The notes under the pieces: generated by a model
Seen by the model: the letters and a program-made list of their open reading frames with translations, nothing else
Databases searched by the model: none
What the model was told of the DNA's origin: nothing
Part shown: piece after piece, positions 983-47,352 of the stretch
Numbering within the stretch: the first letter of the stretch is position 1
Layout: the number at the start of each line of letters is the position of its first letter
Translations under genes and position numbers: made by a program
From: Natrinema pallidum DSM 3751
GTDB lineage: Archaea; Halobacteriota; Halobacteria; Halobacteriales; Natrialbaceae
NCBI RefSeq assembly: GCF_000337615.1
Contig: NZ_AOII01000071.1
Coordinates: 39,044 to 89,840, forward strand
DNA length: 50,797 bases
Direction: 5' to 3'

Positions 983-1111
983 ATGTGTCGTGGTATCGTG
1001 TGCCTTGCTATTGGCCTTTCAGACTCGTTAAGTCCTTGCGGCCACTGACTCAGATACAATGAATCCGGAACCGCGTCGACAGGAGAGCCAGTCCCGAGTT
1101 GCGATCGAACG

Positions 1112-4075
<2,964 letters not shown>

Positions 4076-4089
4076 GGGGAAGTCATCAC

Positions 4090-4788
4090 GTCTATTCGAC
4101 GGCAGCAGGACGATCCTCTCGAAGCTTCGCCGGAGATGTACGTTCCGAACTCGGAGTCGTGATCGACGACTTCGAAGACCTGGTAGAACCCCTTCGGATC
4201 GCCGTTCTCGTCGAGTACGAGCGGGCCACTGACGCCGTCGTAGTTGCTGTCTTCGGGGCCGCCGTCGGCCAGCGCCGCTTTCGCTTCCTGAAACGAGGTG
4301 ACCGTCTCACCGGACTCGACCGTGATTTCCCGGTCGAGGGGCTCCGGAGTGTCGTACTGCTCGAGCAGGATCGCGTTGGCGCTGTCGGCGATACTGCGGT
4401 CCTCACCGTCGGCCGAACTCGCAACGATCCGTCCCTCCTCGATGTCGACGTAGTGGATCGCCTGTGAGCCGATCGGCAACTCGAGGACTCACTGTGAGAG
4501 GTCGTCGTCGATTACCGCCTCGTCACCGCCTGCAACCGGGCCGGACCGAGACAGCATGTTCGCGGTGAGTCGGTTCTTCTCGTTCCAGGTCTCGAGTTTC
4601 TTCGCCTCCTGGGCTGTGACCGTACCCGAATCCTCCGTGACCCGTTGCTCGATATCGGCCTGAATGAGAACCGTTCCCTTGTACCCGATAATCCCCACAG
4701 ACACGCCGAGTACCAGCAACGCGATGCCGAATGTGAGCGCGTAGTTTCGGCGTATCGGCGCTGGGACCGCTGTTCGCAGTCGCGTCAT
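4090..4788 (-). pseudogene. Decayed halobacterial chemotaxis transducer, N-terminal part only
   Basis: The minus strand from ATG 4788 encodes a cytoplasmic tip and first membrane helix (RTAVPAPIRRNYALTFGIALL) closely matching the intact transducer at 44080 (VPTAIRRRYAVKFGIALL). The shared extracellular start follows (RVTEDSGTVTAQEAKKLETWNEKN versus RVQSDHASAAGQEAQSMQMWNEQN). An in-frame TGA at 4489-4491 interrupts it. The same frame continues with recognisable sensor-domain sequence (VLELPIGSQAIHYVDIEEGRIVASS) to about 4090. There the homology ends against uvrA, before the second membrane helix, HAMP or signalling domain. The stop aligns with a tryptophan (LDW) in the intact paralogue, consistent with TGG to TGA. 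It cannot make a working transducer. Confidence 0.85.
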
Positions 4789-4995
4789 ACTATCAACTGT
4801 GGTTGAAAATGCGTTAACACATGTCTAATCATGGTCGAGTGGTGGCGAAAACGGGCGGGCCGAGACCGGTACGGTGGGTTCGGCACGGTTGCGGCCGCTA
4901 CCGAGCGACGGTTCCATGGTCGGGTCGCTCTATAGGACCGTCGCTCGCTAGCTACTGGATAGCGATGTCCGAGCGCTCGGACGATCGCGATACAC

Positions 4996-5145
4996 ATGAA
5001 TCAACAACCTTCAATCGAAACGCAAGCTGACACATCGCTGGATAGTGCACCAACGTGTCTCAAGTGCGAGACGGAACTGGTCGCCGGCAGCGGCCGGCTT
5101 CACTGCCCGTCCTGTGGCTGGGGCGAGTGCTCCGGAGCCGACTGA
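4996..5145 (+). CDS. 49-residue zinc-finger micro-protein
   Basis: A short ORF from ATG 4996 to TGA 5143-5145 encodes a 49-residue protein with C21-x2-C24 and C37-P-S-C40-G, plus a fifth Cys at 45. Two CxxC knuckles separated by 12 residues, the second being CPxCG, are the signature of the abundant one-domain zinc-finger micro-proteins of haloarchaea. Several of these affect motility, biofilm or stress responses. The first 20 residues are polar and low in complexity. The actual role is unknown. The gene is alone, downstream of the divergent transducer pseudogene. Confidence 0.75.
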   Translation: MNQQPSIETQADTSLDSAPTCLKCETELVAGSGRLHCPSCGWGECSGAD

Positions 5146-5524
5146 CGTCACGCGATTAGCTGCGGACCGGATCGATCGGAGAGCCGACGCCCCGATGCAG
5201 ATCGATGTCCCACTACACGACTCGTCGGCGCTGTCCCATTCGTCCGACAACTGGAGACAGTTGTCGTTCGCTCCGCCCTCGAGCGCTGCGTCTCGTCCTG
5301 TCGTTGCTTACGTTCTCGGCGTTGCTCGACGGACGATCAGTAAGAAACGAGCACGACAGTGGCACAACGTTCGTTCCGAAAAACGGCCCCGGTGTCTCAA
5401 CGGTGCGAACGGGACTACCAGTACGCCCCCTACGGACCAAAATTGATGTCCTACTTCTACCGTCGCATCCGCGAACGCAAGGAAAACGCCCTGTTTGCCC
5501 TTCGAGCGGTCCTCACGGGATAGC
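5146..5524. other. Gene-poor stretch with one possible basic 54-codon ORF
   Basis: This 379-base interval between the zinc-finger gene and the convergent Bat-like regulator has no recognisable gene. One frame, from GTG 5359 to TAG 5521-5523, could encode 54 residues ending YFYRRIRERKENALFALRAV. The peptide is strongly basic, unlike real haloarchaeal proteins, and its codons are AT-richer than those of neighbours, so it is either a remnant of a transferred gene or spurious. No tRNA or strong hairpin is visible. Confidence 0.35.
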
Positions 5525-6259
5525 TCACTCGACGCCGATATCGTCGGGATCTAGCAGTTTCGATTCCGCTTTTCGCAGGTGATCGAGCATCGTCGTTTTC
5601 GAAATATCGAGTTCCTCGGCGAGTTCGCGGGTCGAGATGCCGCGGGGCCACTGGTAGTACCCCCGCTTGCGTGCGAGTTCGAACACGTCTCGCTGGGTGT
5701 TGGTGAGGGCGTCCATGCGGTGTTTGCGCTCGGATTCAGCCGTCGGCGTGCTCGTGACGGTTTCGACTGACACGTCGGCATCGCCATCCTCGCAGACGTG
5801 ATCGATCGCGGTTTCGATCTCGTCCCGATCGCCGGCGAACCCGACTTCCCAGTACTCCTGACCGCCTTCGATCCGAACCGGAGCGCTGTGGACGAAGCCG
5901 TGCTCGAGCAGCGTCGGACAGATCATGTCCGCGGGATCGTACTCGAGGAAGAACTCACGGACGACGTTCCCCGGAAGCGACGAGGATTGCGGTCGGCCGA
6001 ACCGTTCCTGAAGTTCGAGGACTTCGCCGGCCAGCGGGGACTCGCGTACCTCTTCGATCAAGGTCTCGACCTCGTCGGTGGTCTGGCCGAACGCAGTGAA
6101 CAGGCCGTTGACCGACTCGCCTTCGGTCGTCGGCGCGGTGTAAATCGCGTGTGCCAGAATGCCCCCGCCGACGCGTTCGGTCGACTCGATCGCCCAGCAG
6201 TTCGGATGCCACAACTCGAGCGTGATCCGCGTTCCGTGGGGTGATCGACTCCGTGCCAT
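5525..6259 (-). CDS. Bacterio-opsin-activator-like HTH transcriptional regulator
   Basis: A 244-residue one-component regulator of the haloarchaeal Bat/HTH-10 family. The N-terminal about 170 residues form the Bat-associated sensor-like domain (RITLELWHPNCWAIE at the start). The C-terminus carries the family helix-turn-helix: LTNTQRDVFELARKRGYYQWPRG, then STRELAEELDISKTTMLDHLRKAESKLL. The start at 6259 is preferred over the upstream ATG at 6301 because conserved sequence begins with MARSRSPHGTRITLELW and the extra 14 residues look non-coding. It is divergent from the aldehyde dehydrogenase gene at 6363 and could regulate it, but that is inference from position only. Confidence 0.88.
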   Translation of the reverse strand: MARSRSPHGTRITLELWHPNCWAIESTERVGGGILAHAIYTAPTTEGESVNGLFTAFGQTTDEVETLIEEVRESPLAGEVLELQERFGRPQSSSLPGNVVREFFLEYDPADMICPTLLEHGFVHSAPVRIEGGQEYWEVGFAGDRDEIETAIDHVCEDGDADVSVETVTSTPTAESERKHRMDALTNTQRDVFELARKRGYYQWPRGISTRELAEELDISKTTMLDHLRKAESKLLDPDDIGVE

Positions 6260-6362
6260 GGTAAATATAGGTGCGTGCCATGCAAGTAGTTCTCGTGCCA
6301 CGAATCACCGCCCGACCATGGACGGGTCCCGTTATTCGATGGCGACGACCCAATCAGCATCC

Positions 6363-7904
6363 ATGAGCCAGCAAACCACGGAGCAGGTATACGGCCACCA
6401 CATTGACGGTGACTGGACCGACGGTGACGGGGACGAGACGTTCGCCAGCGAGAACCCGGCGACGGGTGAGACCCTCGCGCGATTCCAGCAGGGGACGGAC
6501 CGCGATGTCGACGCAGCGCTCGCGGCCGCCGAGGATGCGGCCGAAGCGTGGCGTGAACTGTCCTATATCGACCGTGCGGAGTATCTCTGGGACATCTACC
6601 ACGAACTTCGCGAGCGGACCGACGAACTCGCCGAGATCGTCACGAAGGAGTGTGGCAAGGAGATCAGCGAAGGCCGCGCGGACGTCATCGAGGCCTACCA
6701 CATGGTCGAGTGGGCGGCGGGCAACGCGCGTCACCCCCACGGGGATGTCATCCCGAGCGAGATCGGCAGCAAAGACGCCTCCATGCGGCGCAAACCCCGC
6801 GGCGTCGTCGGCTGTATCACGCCCTGGAACTTCCCGGTCGCGATCCCGTTCTGGCACATGGCCATCGCGCTGATCGAGGGCAACACGGTCGTCTGGAAAC
6901 CCGCGGAGCAGACGCCGTGGTGCGCCCAGATCATCGCCGAGATGATGGACGACGCGGGCGTCCCCGACGGCGTCTTCAACATGGTACAGGGCTTCGGCGA
7001 CGCCGGCGCGGCCATTAGTGAGGACGACCGGGTCGATACCGTTCTCTTCACCGGCTCCGCCGAAGTCGGTCACGAGATCGCCAGCAAGGTCGGTGGTCAG
7101 CCCGGCAAGCTCGCGGCCTGCGAGATGGGCGGCAAGAACGGGATCGTCATCACCGAGGAAGCCGATCTGGACATCGCCGTCCACTCCGCGGTGATGTCGA
7201 GCTTCAAGACGACCGGCCAGCGCTGCGTCTCGAGCGAGCGCCTGATCGTCCACGGGGACATCTACGACGAGTTCAAGGAGCGCTTCGTCGACGTCGCGGA
7301 ACGCGTCACGGTCGGCGATCCCCTCGAAGAGGGGACGTTCATGGGGCCGGCCATCGAAGCCGAGCACGTCGAGAAGATTCGCGAACACAATCAGCTGGCA
7401 CGTGACGAGGGCGCTGAGGTGCTCGTCGACCGGGAGGACCTCGCGGCCGAGGAGATTCCGGACGGCCACGAGGACGGGCAGTGGGTCGGGCCGTTCGTCT
7501 ACGAGGTCGGTACCGACGAGACCGATCTCGAGTGCGTGAACGAGGAGTGTTTCGGCCCGCACGTCGCCCTGCTCGAGTACTCGGGCGACATCGAGGCTGC
7601 CGTCGAGATCCACAACGACACGCCGTACGGACTCGCCGGCGCGATCATCTCCGAGGACTACCGCCAGATCAACTACTTCCGCGATCACGCGGAGCTCGGA
7701 CTCGCGTACGCGAACCTGCCGTGTATCGGCGCGGAAGTCCAGCTTCCCTTCGGCGGCGTCAAGAAGTCCGGGAACGGCTACCCGAGCGCGCGTGAGGCCA
7801 TCGAGGCCGTCACCGAGCGCACCGCCTGGACGCTGAACAACTCGAAGGACATCGAGATGGCACAGGGACTGTCGGCGGATATCGAGACCTCGAGCGACGA
7901 CTGA
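6363..7904 (+). CDS. NAD(P)-dependent aldehyde dehydrogenase
   Basis: A 513-residue member of the ALDH superfamily, oxidising an aldehyde to its acid in the cytosol. Cofactor and active-site motifs are intact: the TPWNFPVAIP oxyanion-region motif near 155-165, a VVWKPAEQTP loop, FTGSAEVGHEI of the nucleotide fold, catalytic Glu in ACEMGGKN, catalytic Cys in GQRCVSSERL, and the ECFGPHVALL and LPFGGVKKSGNG C-terminal motifs. The substrate cannot be decided from sequence. ATG 6363 is chosen because MSQQTTEQVYGHHIDGDW resembles other family starts; an in-frame ATG at 6339 is possible. The gene is preceded by the divergent Bat-like regulator and followed by a tandem duplication that includes its last codons. 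Confidence 0.93.
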   Translation: MSQQTTEQVYGHHIDGDWTDGDGDETFASENPATGETLARFQQGTDRDVDAALAAAEDAAEAWRELSYIDRAEYLWDIYHELRERTDELAEIVTKECGKEISEGRADVIEAYHMVEWAAGNARHPHGDVIPSEIGSKDASMRRKPRGVVGCITPWNFPVAIPFWHMAIALIEGNTVVWKPAEQTPWCAQIIAEMMDDAGVPDGVFNMVQGFGDAGAAISEDDRVDTVLFTGSAEVGHEIASKVGGQPGKLAACEMGGKNGIVITEEADLDIAVHSAVMSSFKTTGQRCVSSERLIVHGDIYDEFKERFVDVAERVTVGDPLEEGTFMGPAIEAEHVEKIREHNQLARDEGAEVLVDREDLAAEEIPDGHEDGQWVGPFVYEVGTDETDLECVNEECFGPHVALLEYSGDIEAAVEIHNDTPYGLAGAIISEDYRQINYFRDHAELGLAYANLPCIGAEVQLPFGGVKKSGNGYPSAREAIEAVTERTAWTLNNSKDIEMAQGLSADIETSSDD

Positions 7905-8019
7905 CCGGTGCCGTCGCGTCAGCGACGAAGCTGCAGTCTCGCTCGAGTGACGGCGACGACTGACCGGTGCCGTCGCGTCAGCGACGAAGCTGCAGTCTCG
8001 CTCGAGTGACGGCGACGAC
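7894..8019. repeat. 59-bp tandem duplication spanning the 3' end of the aldehyde dehydrogenase gene
   Basis: Bases 7894-7960 are identical to 7953-8019, that is, two perfect copies with period 59 and 67 bases of match. The first copy starts inside the last codons of the dehydrogenase, so its terminal Asp-stop codons are repeated downstream as non-coding sequence. Each copy contains short dyads (GTCGC/GCGAC and GCCGTC/GACGGC), so the unit may include the transcript terminator, now doubled. The perfect identity implies a recent slippage or duplication event. Confidence 0.95.
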
Positions 8020-42465: not shown

Positions 42466-43803
42466 CTAGAGCCAGTCCGGCGTCATGTACTCGGCACCGT
42501 CGGCCACGTACTCGTCGGGCCAGATGACCGTCTGCTGACCTTCACCGTCGATTTCCTGCCACTGGAAGTACACCGGGTGAACGTTGCCCTTGCCGTAGAT
42601 AACGTCGTGTGGGTATTCGTCGTCGCGACCGTGGAACTGGATCGTACCGGTGGTGCCCTTGAACTCGGTCTCCTCGAGCGACCCGACCAAGGCCTCCGAC
42701 TCGAGGGAGTCGGTTCGCTTGGCCGCGTCGGCGAACACCTCGACCGCGTCGAAGGCGATATAGCCGGTATAAACCGGGCTTTTGCCGTCGTTTGCGCCTT
42801 GATACGCCTCGACGAAATCCGATGTCCGGTCCGTGAGATCAGCGGTATCGGTCGCGCTGGCGTAACCCGCGGCGTACTCGCAGTCGCCGCCGGTCAGCCG
42901 GTAGTACGACGGGAGTTGCATCGGAACGTGAATGCCGCCGAACTCGAAGTCCCGTTCCTCGGGCCGCCAATCCGCCAGTGCGGCGGTGCCGGTGTGTGCG
43001 GTCGAAATGAACGCCGCATCGGCGTTCGACTCCTCGACTCGCGTGTAGATTTCCGAGAAGTCGTCGGTCGCCGGCGGATACCGTTCCCACGCCGTCACCT
43101 CGATATCGGTCTCGGGGAGGCGACTCCGATAGAAGTCCCACAACCCATCGGTCCAGGCGTAGTCCTCCGCGAGGACCGCGATAGAGTCCCACCCGATATC
43201 ACTGCCCTTCTCGGTCAGGAAGTCGAGTTGCGCCTCTGCGAGGTTGGTCCCGTTAATCGGACCGACACGGAAGTGATACTTGTAGTCGTCGTACGACGAT
43301 TTGACCCGATCGCTGGCCACCGTCGTCGCGGAGCCGGCGGTGAGGTGCACCGTCTCTTGCTCGGCGATCTCCTCGAGCAACGGCACGAGGACTTCACTGG
43401 TGGAAACACCGACGGTAACGTCGGCGTCCTCCTGGAGAATGAGCCGCTGATACTGACGGCGCGCCTCCTGTGGGCTGCCGTTGGTATCGCCGACGACCAT
43501 CTCGACATCACGGCCGAGGATTCCGTCGCCGTCGTTGAGTTGCTTGACGGCGAGCCGCGCACCCCGAACGATCGAGCGCCCCGTCGCGTCGCTCTCCGGG
43601 TTGGGTGCGAGGACGCCGACCGTGACCGGATCGGTTTCGTCGCTTCCGACGAACGATCCGGGCGTCTCGAGACAGCCGGCGAGGGAGAGGCCGGCCGCGC
43701 CACCCGCAGTCGTTTGCAACACTCGACGGCGGTCGAGGTTCCGTCGCAGTCCGCTACGAGCGGGGCCCGTCGCGTTCGCCCGGTCGTGGTCTCCGTCGTT
43801 CAT
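42466..43803 (-). CDS. Leu/Ile/Val-type substrate-binding lipoprotein, paralogue of the previous one
   Basis: A 445-residue protein closely similar to the product of 40719-42068 along its whole length (RLILQEDADVTVGVSTSEVL versus RLILEEDVDVTTGVFASEAL; FEFGGIHVPMQLPSYYRLTGG versus FDFGGIHVPMQLPAYYDLVGG). It has Tat motif DRRRVLQTT and lipobox LAGC (Cys44). ATG 43803 is chosen because the signal follows and a TATA-like GTTAAGAAA (rc of 43826-43836) is about 27 nt upstream. It is divergent from the transducer gene, an arrangement that suggests the two work together in chemotaxis. The ligand is probably an amino acid. Confidence 0.92.
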   Translation of the reverse strand: MNDGDHDRANATGPARSGLRRNLDRRRVLQTTAGGAAGLSLAGCLETPGSFVGSDETDPVTVGVLAPNPESDATGRSIVRGARLAVKQLNDGDGILGRDVEMVVGDTNGSPQEARRQYQRLILQEDADVTVGVSTSEVLVPLLEEIAEQETVHLTAGSATTVASDRVKSSYDDYKYHFRVGPINGTNLAEAQLDFLTEKGSDIGWDSIAVLAEDYAWTDGLWDFYRSRLPETDIEVTAWERYPPATDDFSEIYTRVEESNADAAFISTAHTGTAALADWRPEERDFEFGGIHVPMQLPSYYRLTGGDCEYAAGYASATDTADLTDRTSDFVEAYQGANDGKSPVYTGYIAFDAVEVFADAAKRTDSLESEALVGSLEETEFKGTTGTIQFHGRDDEYPHDVIYGKGNVHPVYFQWQEIDGEGQQTVIWPDEYVADGAEYMTPDWL

Positions 43804-44079: not shown

Positions 44080-47000
44080 ATGGATTTCGCTCGACGGTTG
44101 GTACCGACAGCTATCCGACGCAGATACGCGGTCAAGTTCGGGATCGCGCTGCTCATTCTCGGATTGTCTGTCGGGCTGATCGGATTCGTTGCGACAGGGG
44201 CAATCGCCGATCAGGTGGAGAATCGGGTGCAAAGCGATCACGCTTCCGCCGCCGGACAGGAAGCCCAGAGCATGCAGATGTGGAACGAGCAAAACGAGCA
44301 CACGGTCGGGATGATCGCCCGATCCGACGTCGTCGCCAGCGACGACCCGGCTGCGATCGAACGGCGTTTCCTCGACTGGCAAGAACACTTAGACGCCGAT
44401 ACGTTCGATATCTCCTACGTCAATCTGGACAACCGAACCGTGACCGCGAGTACGAACGAGGCCTATCGCGGGACACCGGCGGCCGATATCGATAACATCC
44501 CGAACGAAGCCTACGAGGACGCCTCGAAAACCGTTCCGTGGGTCTCGGACGCCTATATCGCCGAAGGGGAGTTCGGCCAGAACACGACCGTCCTCACGTA
44601 CGTCCAGCGCTCTGCCGACAACGAGAACCGAGCGGTCGTCTACACTGCTGATCTCGAGGCGTACGCGAGCCAACTACAGGACGATGAGGGTGTCACGACG
44701 GTGATCCTCGACGGTGAGAACGACGTCATGCTTGACAACGCCGACTACGGTGAGAACCACCAACTGTTCGGCTACACCTACAACGACGGCAACGGCCTCG
44801 CCAAGAGCGCACGGACCGAGGGCGCAACCACGCAGCAGGTCGCCGGCTCGTCGCTCTCGCTGGGCGATTACGACCTCGGTGAGGACAGCGACGAGTACGT
44901 CGCCAGTTCCGCCCGCGTGTTCGGGACCGACTGGGTCGTCCTGACCGTCGAACCCGCCGACCAGGCACTCGGGTTCGTCAACAGCGTCAACCAGTGGGGA
45001 CTCGTGGCGACGATTCTCGGGGTCGTCATGATCGGCGCGGTCGGTGCAGTCCTGGGCCGAAACACTGCCGTCTCGATCGATCGGCTCACCGACAAGGCCA
45101 GCGAGATGGAGGACGGCAACCTCAACGTCGACTTCGAGACCAAACGGATCGACAACATCGGCCGGCTCTACGACGGGTTCGGCTCGATGCGTGATGCCTT
45201 GCGCGAACAGATCGAAGAGGCCGAAGCCGCCCGCATGGAGGCCGAACGCGAACGTGAACGCGTCTTGGAGATCAACGATCACCTCGAGGACAAGGCCGCG
45301 GAATACTGCGCGGTCATGGGTGAGGCCGCCGATGGGAACCTCACCGCCCGTGCGGACGTCGAAAGCGACAACGAACAGATGCAACAGATCGGCGAGGACT
45401 TCAACGAGATGCTCGACGAGATCGAGCAGACCATCGCCGAACTCAACCGGTTCGCGACCGACGTCGCGACCGCCTCCGAGCAGGTGACCGCCTCGAGCGA
45501 GGAGGTTCGGTCCGCCTCCCAGCAGGTCACCGAGTCGATTCAGGAGATTTCCGACGGTGCGGACCGACAGAACGACTCCCTCCAGTCGGTCGACCAGGAG
45601 ATGAGCGGCCTCTCGACGACGACCGAGGAGATCGCCGCGTCCTCGAATGAGGTGGCCGACATCGCGGAGCGGACCGTCGACACCGGTCGGGAAGGGCAGG
45701 AAGCCGCTCAGGCGGCGATCACTGCCATGGACGAGATCGAGACCGAGGCCGGCGACGCCGTCGCCGAGATCCGTCGTCTCGAGGAAGAGGTCCAGCAGAT
45801 CGACGAACTGATCAACACGATTTCCGAGATCGCCCACCAGACGAACATGCTGGCGCTGAACGCCAACATCGAAGCCTCCCGCTCCGCGGGCGGCAGCGAC
45901 GACGAAGGGTTCTCCGTCGTCGCAAAGGAAGTCAAGGCGCTCTCCGAGGACGTCGCCGAAGCGGCCGACGAAGCCGAGGACCGACTCGAGGCGATCCGCA
46001 AGCGGACGGAAACCTCCGCTGCCGAAGTCGAAGGTACGAGTAGCGACATCGAAACCGCCAGCGATCGGGTCGAGGAGGCGGTCAAGGCGCTCGAGGAGAT
46101 CGCCGACCTCGCTCAGGAGACCAACATCGGTGTACAGGAGATCTCCGCAGCGACCGAAGAGCAGGCCGCCTCCACGCAGGAGGTCGTCGCGATGGTCGAC
46201 GACGCCGCAACGATCTCCGAGGAGACGACGGCGGAAGCCGAGAACGTCGCCGCCGCGGCCGAAGAACAGACCACCGCACTGACCGAAGTCACGAAGTCCG
46301 CCTCGAGCCTCTCCGAACAGGCCTCGCAGCTTTCCGAAGCGCTCGACCGGTTCGACACTGATGTCGACCACGTCGACCTCGACTTCGAATCGACGTTCGA
46401 CGTGGACGCGGAACTGGATGCGCCCGCGGCGATTGACGACGCTGCGGCCGACGGCGAGTCGGCCGAAGAGGGTCAGGGCATCACGTTCGACGCCGCAAGC
46501 GAGCAGGACGACTCCGACGAGACCCTCACGTTCGACGACGCGGACGGGGACGCCCACGAACTCGAGGAGGACGCAGACGCGGACACTGCCGATGCCGACC
46601 GATCGACGGAGACCGCGTTCGATTCCGAGGCGTCGGTCGACGATCCGATCGATCACGCCGGTGACGATTCGGCGACCGGCAGTGGAGCCGATGGCGACGC
46701 GACCGAGGAACTCGGTGCCGAAGAGATCCTCGGAATCGAGGGGAGCGAAGACGAGGAGTCCGACGCGATCGAGTCGACCGACGCGACCGATCCGCTCGCC
46801 GATGACACCGTCGGAGCCGATAGCGACGGGACGACGGATACGACCGATCCACTCGCCGACGACGCCTTCGGAGCCGACGGTGACGAGACAACGGACGCGA
46901 CCGATCCACTCGCCGATGACGCCTTCGGAACCGACGGTGACGAGACAACGGACGCGACCGATCCACTCGCCGATGACGCCTTCGGAACCGACGGTGACGA

Positions 47001-47352
47001 GACGACGGACGCGACCGATCCACTCGCCGACGACGCCTTCGGAACCGACGGTGACGAGACGACGGATACGACCGAGTCGACCGGCCCGACCGACCCGCTT
47101 GCCGACGACACCCCCAAATCCGGCGGGGACGACACGGCAGACATCGCCGAGTCGGCCGGCGACGAACCGGACGCCCAACCGCTCGGATCGGTCGACGACG
47201 GTGGCCATGCGGAGACCGACGACGAATCGGCCGCCGACGAGACTCCTGCGGCCGACGACCTCGAGAGCGACGAGACTGACGAAAGCGACGGGGCCGACGA
47301 GGACGACGAAGACGACGACGTGTTCACGTTCGGCGCGACCGACGAGGAGTAA
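44080..47352 (+). CDS. Halobacterial methyl-accepting chemotaxis transducer with a long acidic tail
   Basis: A 1090-residue transducer. Cytoplasmic tip and first helix (RRRYAVKFGIALLILGLSVG) are followed by an extracellular dCache-like sensor (about 45-300) and a second helix (about 303-326). HAMP follows, then the methyl-accepting coiled coil with hairpin tip HQTNMLALNANIEASR (about 585) and GFSVVAKEV (about 611). It should signal to CheA/CheW. The C-terminal about 330 residues are unusually long and acidic, with 19-residue repeats and TF-containing motifs. ATG 44080 is chosen by alignment with the pseudogene start at 4788 (MTRLRTAVPAPIRRNYAL versus MDFARRLVPTAIRRRYAV). It is divergent from the binding-protein gene at 43803. 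Confidence 0.95.
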   Translation: MDFARRLVPTAIRRRYAVKFGIALLILGLSVGLIGFVATGAIADQVENRVQSDHASAAGQEAQSMQMWNEQNEHTVGMIARSDVVASDDPAAIERRFLDWQEHLDADTFDISYVNLDNRTVTASTNEAYRGTPAADIDNIPNEAYEDASKTVPWVSDAYIAEGEFGQNTTVLTYVQRSADNENRAVVYTADLEAYASQLQDDEGVTTVILDGENDVMLDNADYGENHQLFGYTYNDGNGLAKSARTEGATTQQVAGSSLSLGDYDLGEDSDEYVASSARVFGTDWVVLTVEPADQALGFVNSVNQWGLVATILGVVMIGAVGAVLGRNTAVSIDRLTDKASEMEDGNLNVDFETKRIDNIGRLYDGFGSMRDALREQIEEAEAARMEAERERERVLEINDHLEDKAAEYCAVMGEAADGNLTARADVESDNEQMQQIGEDFNEMLDEIEQTIAELNRFATDVATASEQVTASSEEVRSASQQVTESIQEISDGADRQNDSLQSVDQEMSGLSTTTEEIAASSNEVADIAERTVDTGREGQEAAQAAITAMDEIETEAGDAVAEIRRLEEEVQQIDELINTISEIAHQTNMLALNANIEASRSAGGSDDEGFSVVAKEVKALSEDVAEAADEAEDRLEAIRKRTETSAAEVEGTSSDIETASDRVEEAVKALEEIADLAQETNIGVQEISAATEEQAASTQEVVAMVDDAATISEETTAEAENVAAAAEEQTTALTEVTKSASSLSEQASQLSEALDRFDTDVDHVDLDFESTFDVDAELDAPAAIDDAAADGESAEEGQGITFDAASEQDDSDETLTFDDADGDAHELEEDADADTADADRSTETAFDSEASVDDPIDHAGDDSATGSGADGDATEELGAEEILGIEGSEDEESDAIESTDATDPLADDTVGADSDGTTDTTDPLADDAFGADGDETTDATDPLADDAFGTDGDETTDATDPLADDAFGTDGDETTDATDPLADDAFGTDGDETTDTTESTGPTDPLADDTPKSGGDDTADIAESAGDEPDAQPLGSVDDGGHAETDDESAADETPAADDLESDETDESDGADEDDEDDDVFTFGATDEE
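46783..47068 (+). repeat. 57-bp coding tandem repeat (five copies) in the transducer tail
   Basis: Copies begin at 46784, 46841, 46898, 46955 and 47012 with a strict 57-bp period, each encoding about 19 residues of the form TDPLADDAFGTDGDETTDA. The last three are nearly identical in DNA, the first is more diverged, and a decayed sixth follows at 47069. All are in frame with the transducer, so copy number can change without breaking the protein. Confidence 0.95.

Follow-up and report, generated by a model that had tools for sequence, protein, structure and literature searches.

The DNA that follows uvrA in Natrinema pallidum DSM 3751 is very probably the deletion-eroded remnant of a taxis-transport-catabolism island that lies between uvrA and the downstream chromosome. 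The analysed window (50,797 nucleotides, genome G000) retains there the beginning of a chemotaxis transducer gene, the ends of a substrate-binding protein gene and of a proline dehydrogenase gene, and a few intact genes; at least three deletions would have removed about 9 kb of the island in this lineage. Within one genus the same locus is found intact (genome G016), as a three-deletion remnant (the window) and, in 27 congeners, completely lost, in one of them with a short-repeat join. Such a readable intermediate of operon loss opens the order and the mechanism of deletion to study; as a case of pseudogenisation and gene loss it is ordinary, and moderately informative as an intermediate.

N-terminal transducer sequence is encoded by the minus strand of positions 4090-4788; the 233 codons of its translation are interrupted once, by an in-frame TGA at codon 100. 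The sole real relative of this fragment inside the window is the following gene.

44080..47352, plus strand: intact paralogous transducer with HAMP and MCPsignal domains (Pfam), with counterparts in congeners.

The two align without gaps over residues 1-125 at 40% identity (E 1e-24), which far exceeds chance, and the TGA stands opposite a tryptophan of the 44080 product. A Pfam search of the fragment gave zero matches and revealed neither a HAMP nor an MCP signalling domain. The initial annotation had correctly noticed both the TGA opposite tryptophan and the disappearance of the signalling domain. Its description of the fragment as closely related to the 44080 product, however, suits another gene. 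When the fragment was searched against 28 other genomes of the genus, a close relative was found only in G016, in two places about 3.5 kb apart: one, within an open frame of 993 codons, matched residues 1-134 at 87%, the other residues 151-229 at 80%. This G016 locus also supplied the full-length orthologue next to uvrA that the initial annotation had proposed looking for.

The gene order in G016 (L034) is uvrA, a Liv-type substrate-binding protein gene (PBP2), the transducer gene, a small zinc-finger ORF, livF-G-M-H, a second binding-protein gene (PBP1), proline dehydrogenase (PRODH), an HTH_10 regulator and an aldehyde dehydrogenase. Two of these genes, which overlap by 8 bp, are central to the comparison.

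L034 4769-6127, minus strand: PBP2 gene, Peripla_BP_6 (Pfam, E 2e-34).
L034 6120-8696, minus strand: transducer gene, HAMP (E 1e-10) and MCPsignal (E 2e-31; Pfam).

The G016 island also encodes the parts of a Liv/Urt transporter (two BPD_transp_2 permeases, two ATPases and a Peripla_BP_6 binding protein) and, on the plus strand, a proline dehydrogenase with the full Pro_dh domain (PF01619). Mapping against G016 revealed no branched-chain-type ABC transporter genes at the window locus. By this mapping, window positions 1010-4337 correspond to L034 1634-4977 (uvrA and the last 69 PBP2 codons), 4407-5143 to L034 8315-9045 (transducer N-terminus, promoter region and small ORF), and 5415 onward to L034 15144 onward (end of proline dehydrogenase, regulator and dehydrogenase). 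The features of the locus are as follows.

1112..4075, plus strand: uvrA, intact, the left flank; 96% amino acid identity to the G016 uvrA that borders the intact island.
4129..4337, minus strand: C-terminal 69 codons of the Liv-type substrate-binding protein PBP2, stop lost; 87% amino acid identity to residues 384-453 of L034:4769-6127, the intact gene being Peripla_BP_6.
4329..4337, no strand: deletion junction 2, with 3,019 bp lost in frame, at imperfect 7/9 repeats (mapping to G016).
4329..4413, minus strand: internal piece of the transducer, about 24 codons, flanked by two deletion junctions; 87% DNA identity to L034 7988-8072.
4407..4413, no strand: deletion junction 1, inside the sensor, with 249 bp lost in frame, at the 7-bp direct repeat CGTCGGC (repeats of at least 7 bp occur at 0.16% of random breakpoint pairs).
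4407..4788, minus strand: first 127 codons of the transducer, with its start, the first TM segment, the beginning of the sensor region and the codon-100 TGA; 86-87% amino acid identity to G016 L034 8315-8696.
4489..4491, minus strand: in-frame TGA (codon 100), from translation and comparison of orthologue codons.
4996..5145, plus strand: intact small ORF of 49 aa with CxxC zinc-knuckle motifs, in the same place in G016.
5166..5385, no strand: decayed intergenic DNA, from the stretch that separates the small ORF from livF, corresponding to L034 9061 to about 9290; local alignment score 49 versus a maximum of 25.5 in 60 shuffles.
5386..5415, no strand: deletion junction 3, with about 5.8 kb lost, placed by mapping to G016 only to within this interval.
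5415..5524 (also given as 5415-5521), plus strand: remaining 3' end of the proline dehydrogenase gene, consisting of the stop and about 35 codons before it; 87-88% DNA identity from L034 15144 on, the intact gene being Pro_dh PF01619.
5525..6301, minus strand: intact HTH_10 (bat-type) regulator of the island; PF04967 E 2e-19, 90% to G016, dN/dS 0.13.
6342..7904, plus strand: intact aldehyde dehydrogenase; Aldedh E 7e-142, 96% to G016, dN/dS 0.05.

Judged from this alignment of sequences, the minus strand of 4129-4788 is a three-piece fusion created by two deletions. Junction 2 has cost the transducer its HAMP and MCP domains and PBP2 most of its length, so that the transducer interior is joined to the PBP2 end; missing at junction 3 are livF-livG-livM-livH-PBP1 and the 5' part of PRODH. 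Because junctions 1 and 2 both preserve the reading frame (about 1 in 9 by chance), the initial annotation saw one continuous product there, the N-terminal half of a transducer. That description holds for codons 1-127 and for the roughly 24 internal codons, but the final 69 codons encode the C-terminal end of a Peripla_BP_6 binding protein. Nor does the frame end at 4090, as had been stated: with the PBP2 stop codon lost, it runs on antisense into uvrA. In the history that we propose, a 249-bp deletion in the sensor would have arisen via the 7-bp direct repeat, a 3.0-kb deletion would have fused the transducer interior to the PBP2 end, and a deletion of about 5.8 kb would have taken the transporter together with PBP1 and the greater part of proline dehydrogenase. 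The CGG to TGA change (two substitutions) and the loss of the PBP2 stop would be further damage, suffered before or after the deletions.

The 49-aa CxxC ORF (4996-5145) is intact and conserved in G016, despite decayed neighbours on either side. For the 271 bp at 5144-5414 we considered a mobile element, but no repeats of this DNA were found in the genome, and alignment to L034 identifies it as mostly decayed intergenic DNA; a mobile-element origin was rejected.

The N-terminus of the fragment is orthologous to an intact Htr, with 86-87% amino acid identity over residues 1-127/134 to the gene at the same locus in G016. The window thus holds a copy with missing segments and a disrupted frame of a gene that is intact at the same locus elsewhere, the pattern of a pseudogene formed by deletion. 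An Htr carries HAMP and MCP signalling domains after the sensor, and the window fragment has neither. As it has no Pfam match, whereas the G016 orthologue has HAMP and MCPsignal, the fragment is best classed as a remnant of a haloarchaeal MCP-type transducer (Htr) and not as an Htr.

The preserved frame raises the question of whether the deletions first gave an in-frame fusion of the TM segment, part of the sensor and the PBP2 C-terminus, which was expressed for a time and acquired the stop later. The two in-frame junctions and the still low dN/dS of the remnant are in keeping with this. Such a product, however, would have had no HAMP or signalling domains and little of the binding fold, the low dN/dS is accounted for by the time before decay, and both the loss of the PBP2 stop and the TGA at codon 100 speak against it; we regard a formerly expressed fusion as improbable.

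The initial annotation had instead proposed a single nonsense mutation, TGG to TGA, in a transducer related to that at 44080, which would imply that the 3' part was lost later. The one in-frame TGA opposite tryptophan prompted this reading, and a route from CGG to TGA could pass through TGG. The codon aligned to the TGA, however, is CGG (arginine) in both true orthologues, those of G016 and of G041, a genome from outside the genus. Because G016 and the independent G041 orthologue agree, the ancestral residue at codon 100 was arginine, and CGG to TGA requires two substitutions. The tryptophan of the 44080 paralogue, only 40% identical, is uninformative about the ancestral codon; a premature stop is easily misread when a paralogue serves as the reference. 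The stop or the deletions, in either order, are each sufficient to kill the transducer gene, and the stop is not the evident cause where at least three deletions took about 9 kb including the signalling domain. With the last 69 codons coming from another gene and the deletions alone abolishing function, inactivation by TGG to TGA is very unlikely. Among the residues that distinguish the remnant from G016, those at which G041 agrees with one of the two give six changes on the remnant side (the stop included) and two on the G016 side, in an alignment read by eye and with numbers too few for significance.

It is scarcely credible that an intact locus in the organism was collapsed by an assembly error: the assembly is a draft of 115 contigs, with short repeats and paralogous binding-protein ends at the locus, but the junctions are internal to one contig and their flanks have diverged, the TGA and the PBP2 stop loss accompany the deletions, and a collapse would leave the deleted genes on other contigs, whereas elsewhere in G000 there is no transducer match above 40% and no other PBP2 copy.

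Transducers of the 44080 type occur in most congeners, with about 38-43% identity to the fragment. The 44080 gene is a genus-wide paralogue, and it and the fragment are not recent duplicates of each other. It resembles the eroded locus in its N-terminal architecture and in having a neighbouring binding-protein gene, but differs in being intact, in being 40% identical over 125 aa only and in having counterparts throughout the genus. The binding protein divergent to it (42466-43791) is Liv/Urt-like, and the two may form a second binding-protein/transducer pair. Behind the signalling domain, the C-terminal tail of the 44080 product is long and acidic and contains several nearly identical repeats, each of about 19 aa (TTDATDPLADDAFGTDGDE).

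Deletion erosion of an older island also agrees with the distribution of its parts. The order uvrA-LivFGMH-PBP1-PRODH-HTH-ALDH is found in three genomes of other Natrialbaceae genera (G109, G043 and G045), in the first of which the block is followed by the window's own downstream genes, and a partial form, uvrA-Liv-PBP1, occurs in G111 and G113; the transducer and PBP2 are missing from the blocks of all five. Because the same gene order recurs in other genera, the block is most simply ancestral to these Natrialbaceae and its absence derived. Within Natrinema the block is missing in 27 of the 29 genomes, with G000 part-way and G016 intact; inspection of the 14 kb after uvrA in those 27 congeners (20 and seven loci) revealed nothing of the island. 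Their lack of it had suggested an insertion specific to G016 and G000, an idea dropped for the Liv-PRODH-ALDH part, the order of which is found in other genera. The transducer and PBP2 pair, whole in G016 and, outside the genus, only in G041, could be an insertion in the ancestor shared by G016 and G000, since G016 is the only intact reference for the pair at this site. A plasmid search with the G016 sensor returned only relatives of about 36% or less and no sign of a plasmid-borne pair.

The uvrA tree pairs G001 with G000 as sisters and places G016 outside them; on this branching the island was lost several times within the genus. In G019 the uvrA end runs straight into the DNA that follows the aldehyde dehydrogenase. 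The two meet at CGACGACTGA, which occurs at the 3' ends of both the uvrA and the dehydrogenase gene; taken alone, this join could also be a site into which the island had not yet been inserted. The dN/dS between the fragment and G016 is 0.19 (95% 0.08-0.37) and that of the PBP2 piece 0.24, as compared with 0.26 for the intact pair of G016 and G041. Because the values of the remnants do not exceed that of the intact pair, most of their divergence predates the decay, and it is fair to call the loss recent. The initial annotation was right in this respect and in that a receptor was lost; the lost unit, however, is a whole island for sensing, uptake and proline oxidation, and not a lone receptor. 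The regulator and the aldehyde dehydrogenase that survive are under constraint, as their dN/dS values indicate.

The island, of about 10 kb, probably served to sense, import and degrade proline. The aldehyde dehydrogenase at 6342..7904 is a predicted P5C (glutamate semialdehyde) dehydrogenase, and from the gene neighbourhood, in which the Liv-type transporter stands beside this P5C-type enzyme and proline dehydrogenase, we infer that the transporter imports proline or a close relative. The window's HTH_10 regulator, aldehyde dehydrogenase and PRODH tail match the order of haloarchaeal proline utilisation genes on Natrinema replicons and in other genera, but the full catalytic domain (PF01619) is missing and PRODH is reduced to about 35 C-terminal codons, which leaves this copy of the pathway broken. 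Two intact full proline dehydrogenase paralogues exist elsewhere in G000, and the genome has four MCP-domain genes versus eight in G016. Given these, a loss of proline oxidation or of taxis in general is not expected in G000, and the same genes may explain why loss of the island was tolerated.

Binding-protein-dependent transducers are known from Halobacterium salinarum, where the binding proteins BasB and CosB co-purify with BasT and CosT, respectively (PMC3579733). The intact G016 locus likewise has adjacent genes for an MCP-type transducer and a Liv-type (Peripla_BP_6) binding protein, and G041 has the same pair; the transducers of the two genomes are 61% identical over the sensor. The G016 pair differs from BasT/BasB and CosT/CosB in that the transducer gene precedes the binding-protein gene, in that the pair lies beside proline dehydrogenase and the transporter, and in that its ligand is a prediction; the window copy is a remnant. 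Since the PBP2 of G016 is 44% identical to its PBP1, and by analogy to BasB/BasT and CosB/CosT, PBP2 and the transducer would report the ligand of the transporter, and the intact pair would have mediated chemotaxis to it, most likely to proline. Proline is not assigned as a ligand in the Halobacterium transducer table (PMC3579733). We tentatively propose, with doubt and belief nearly balanced, that the G016 (and G041) orthologue is a dedicated proline taxis receptor acting through its own binding protein, linked in G016 to genes of proline uptake and oxidation, and that Natrinema repeatedly sheds the island by short-repeat recombination. The locus points in this way to a putative haloarchaeal taxis receptor with a predicted ligand, a more interesting lead than the pseudogene of the window.

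Across the Natrinema genomes, MCP-domain matches vary from one (G028) and two (G023) to eight (G016). In the draft assembly of G004, uvrA lies in two frames (residues 1-491 and 501-987; L123 and L124, L167) and a downstream gene is split too, possibly by frameshift or assembly errors. At window positions 7894-8019 a 59-bp unit stands twice, perfectly repeated head to tail (2.1 copies); it begins within the final codons of the aldehyde dehydrogenase gene and carries CGACGACTGA, the string also present at the uvrA end and at the G019 join.
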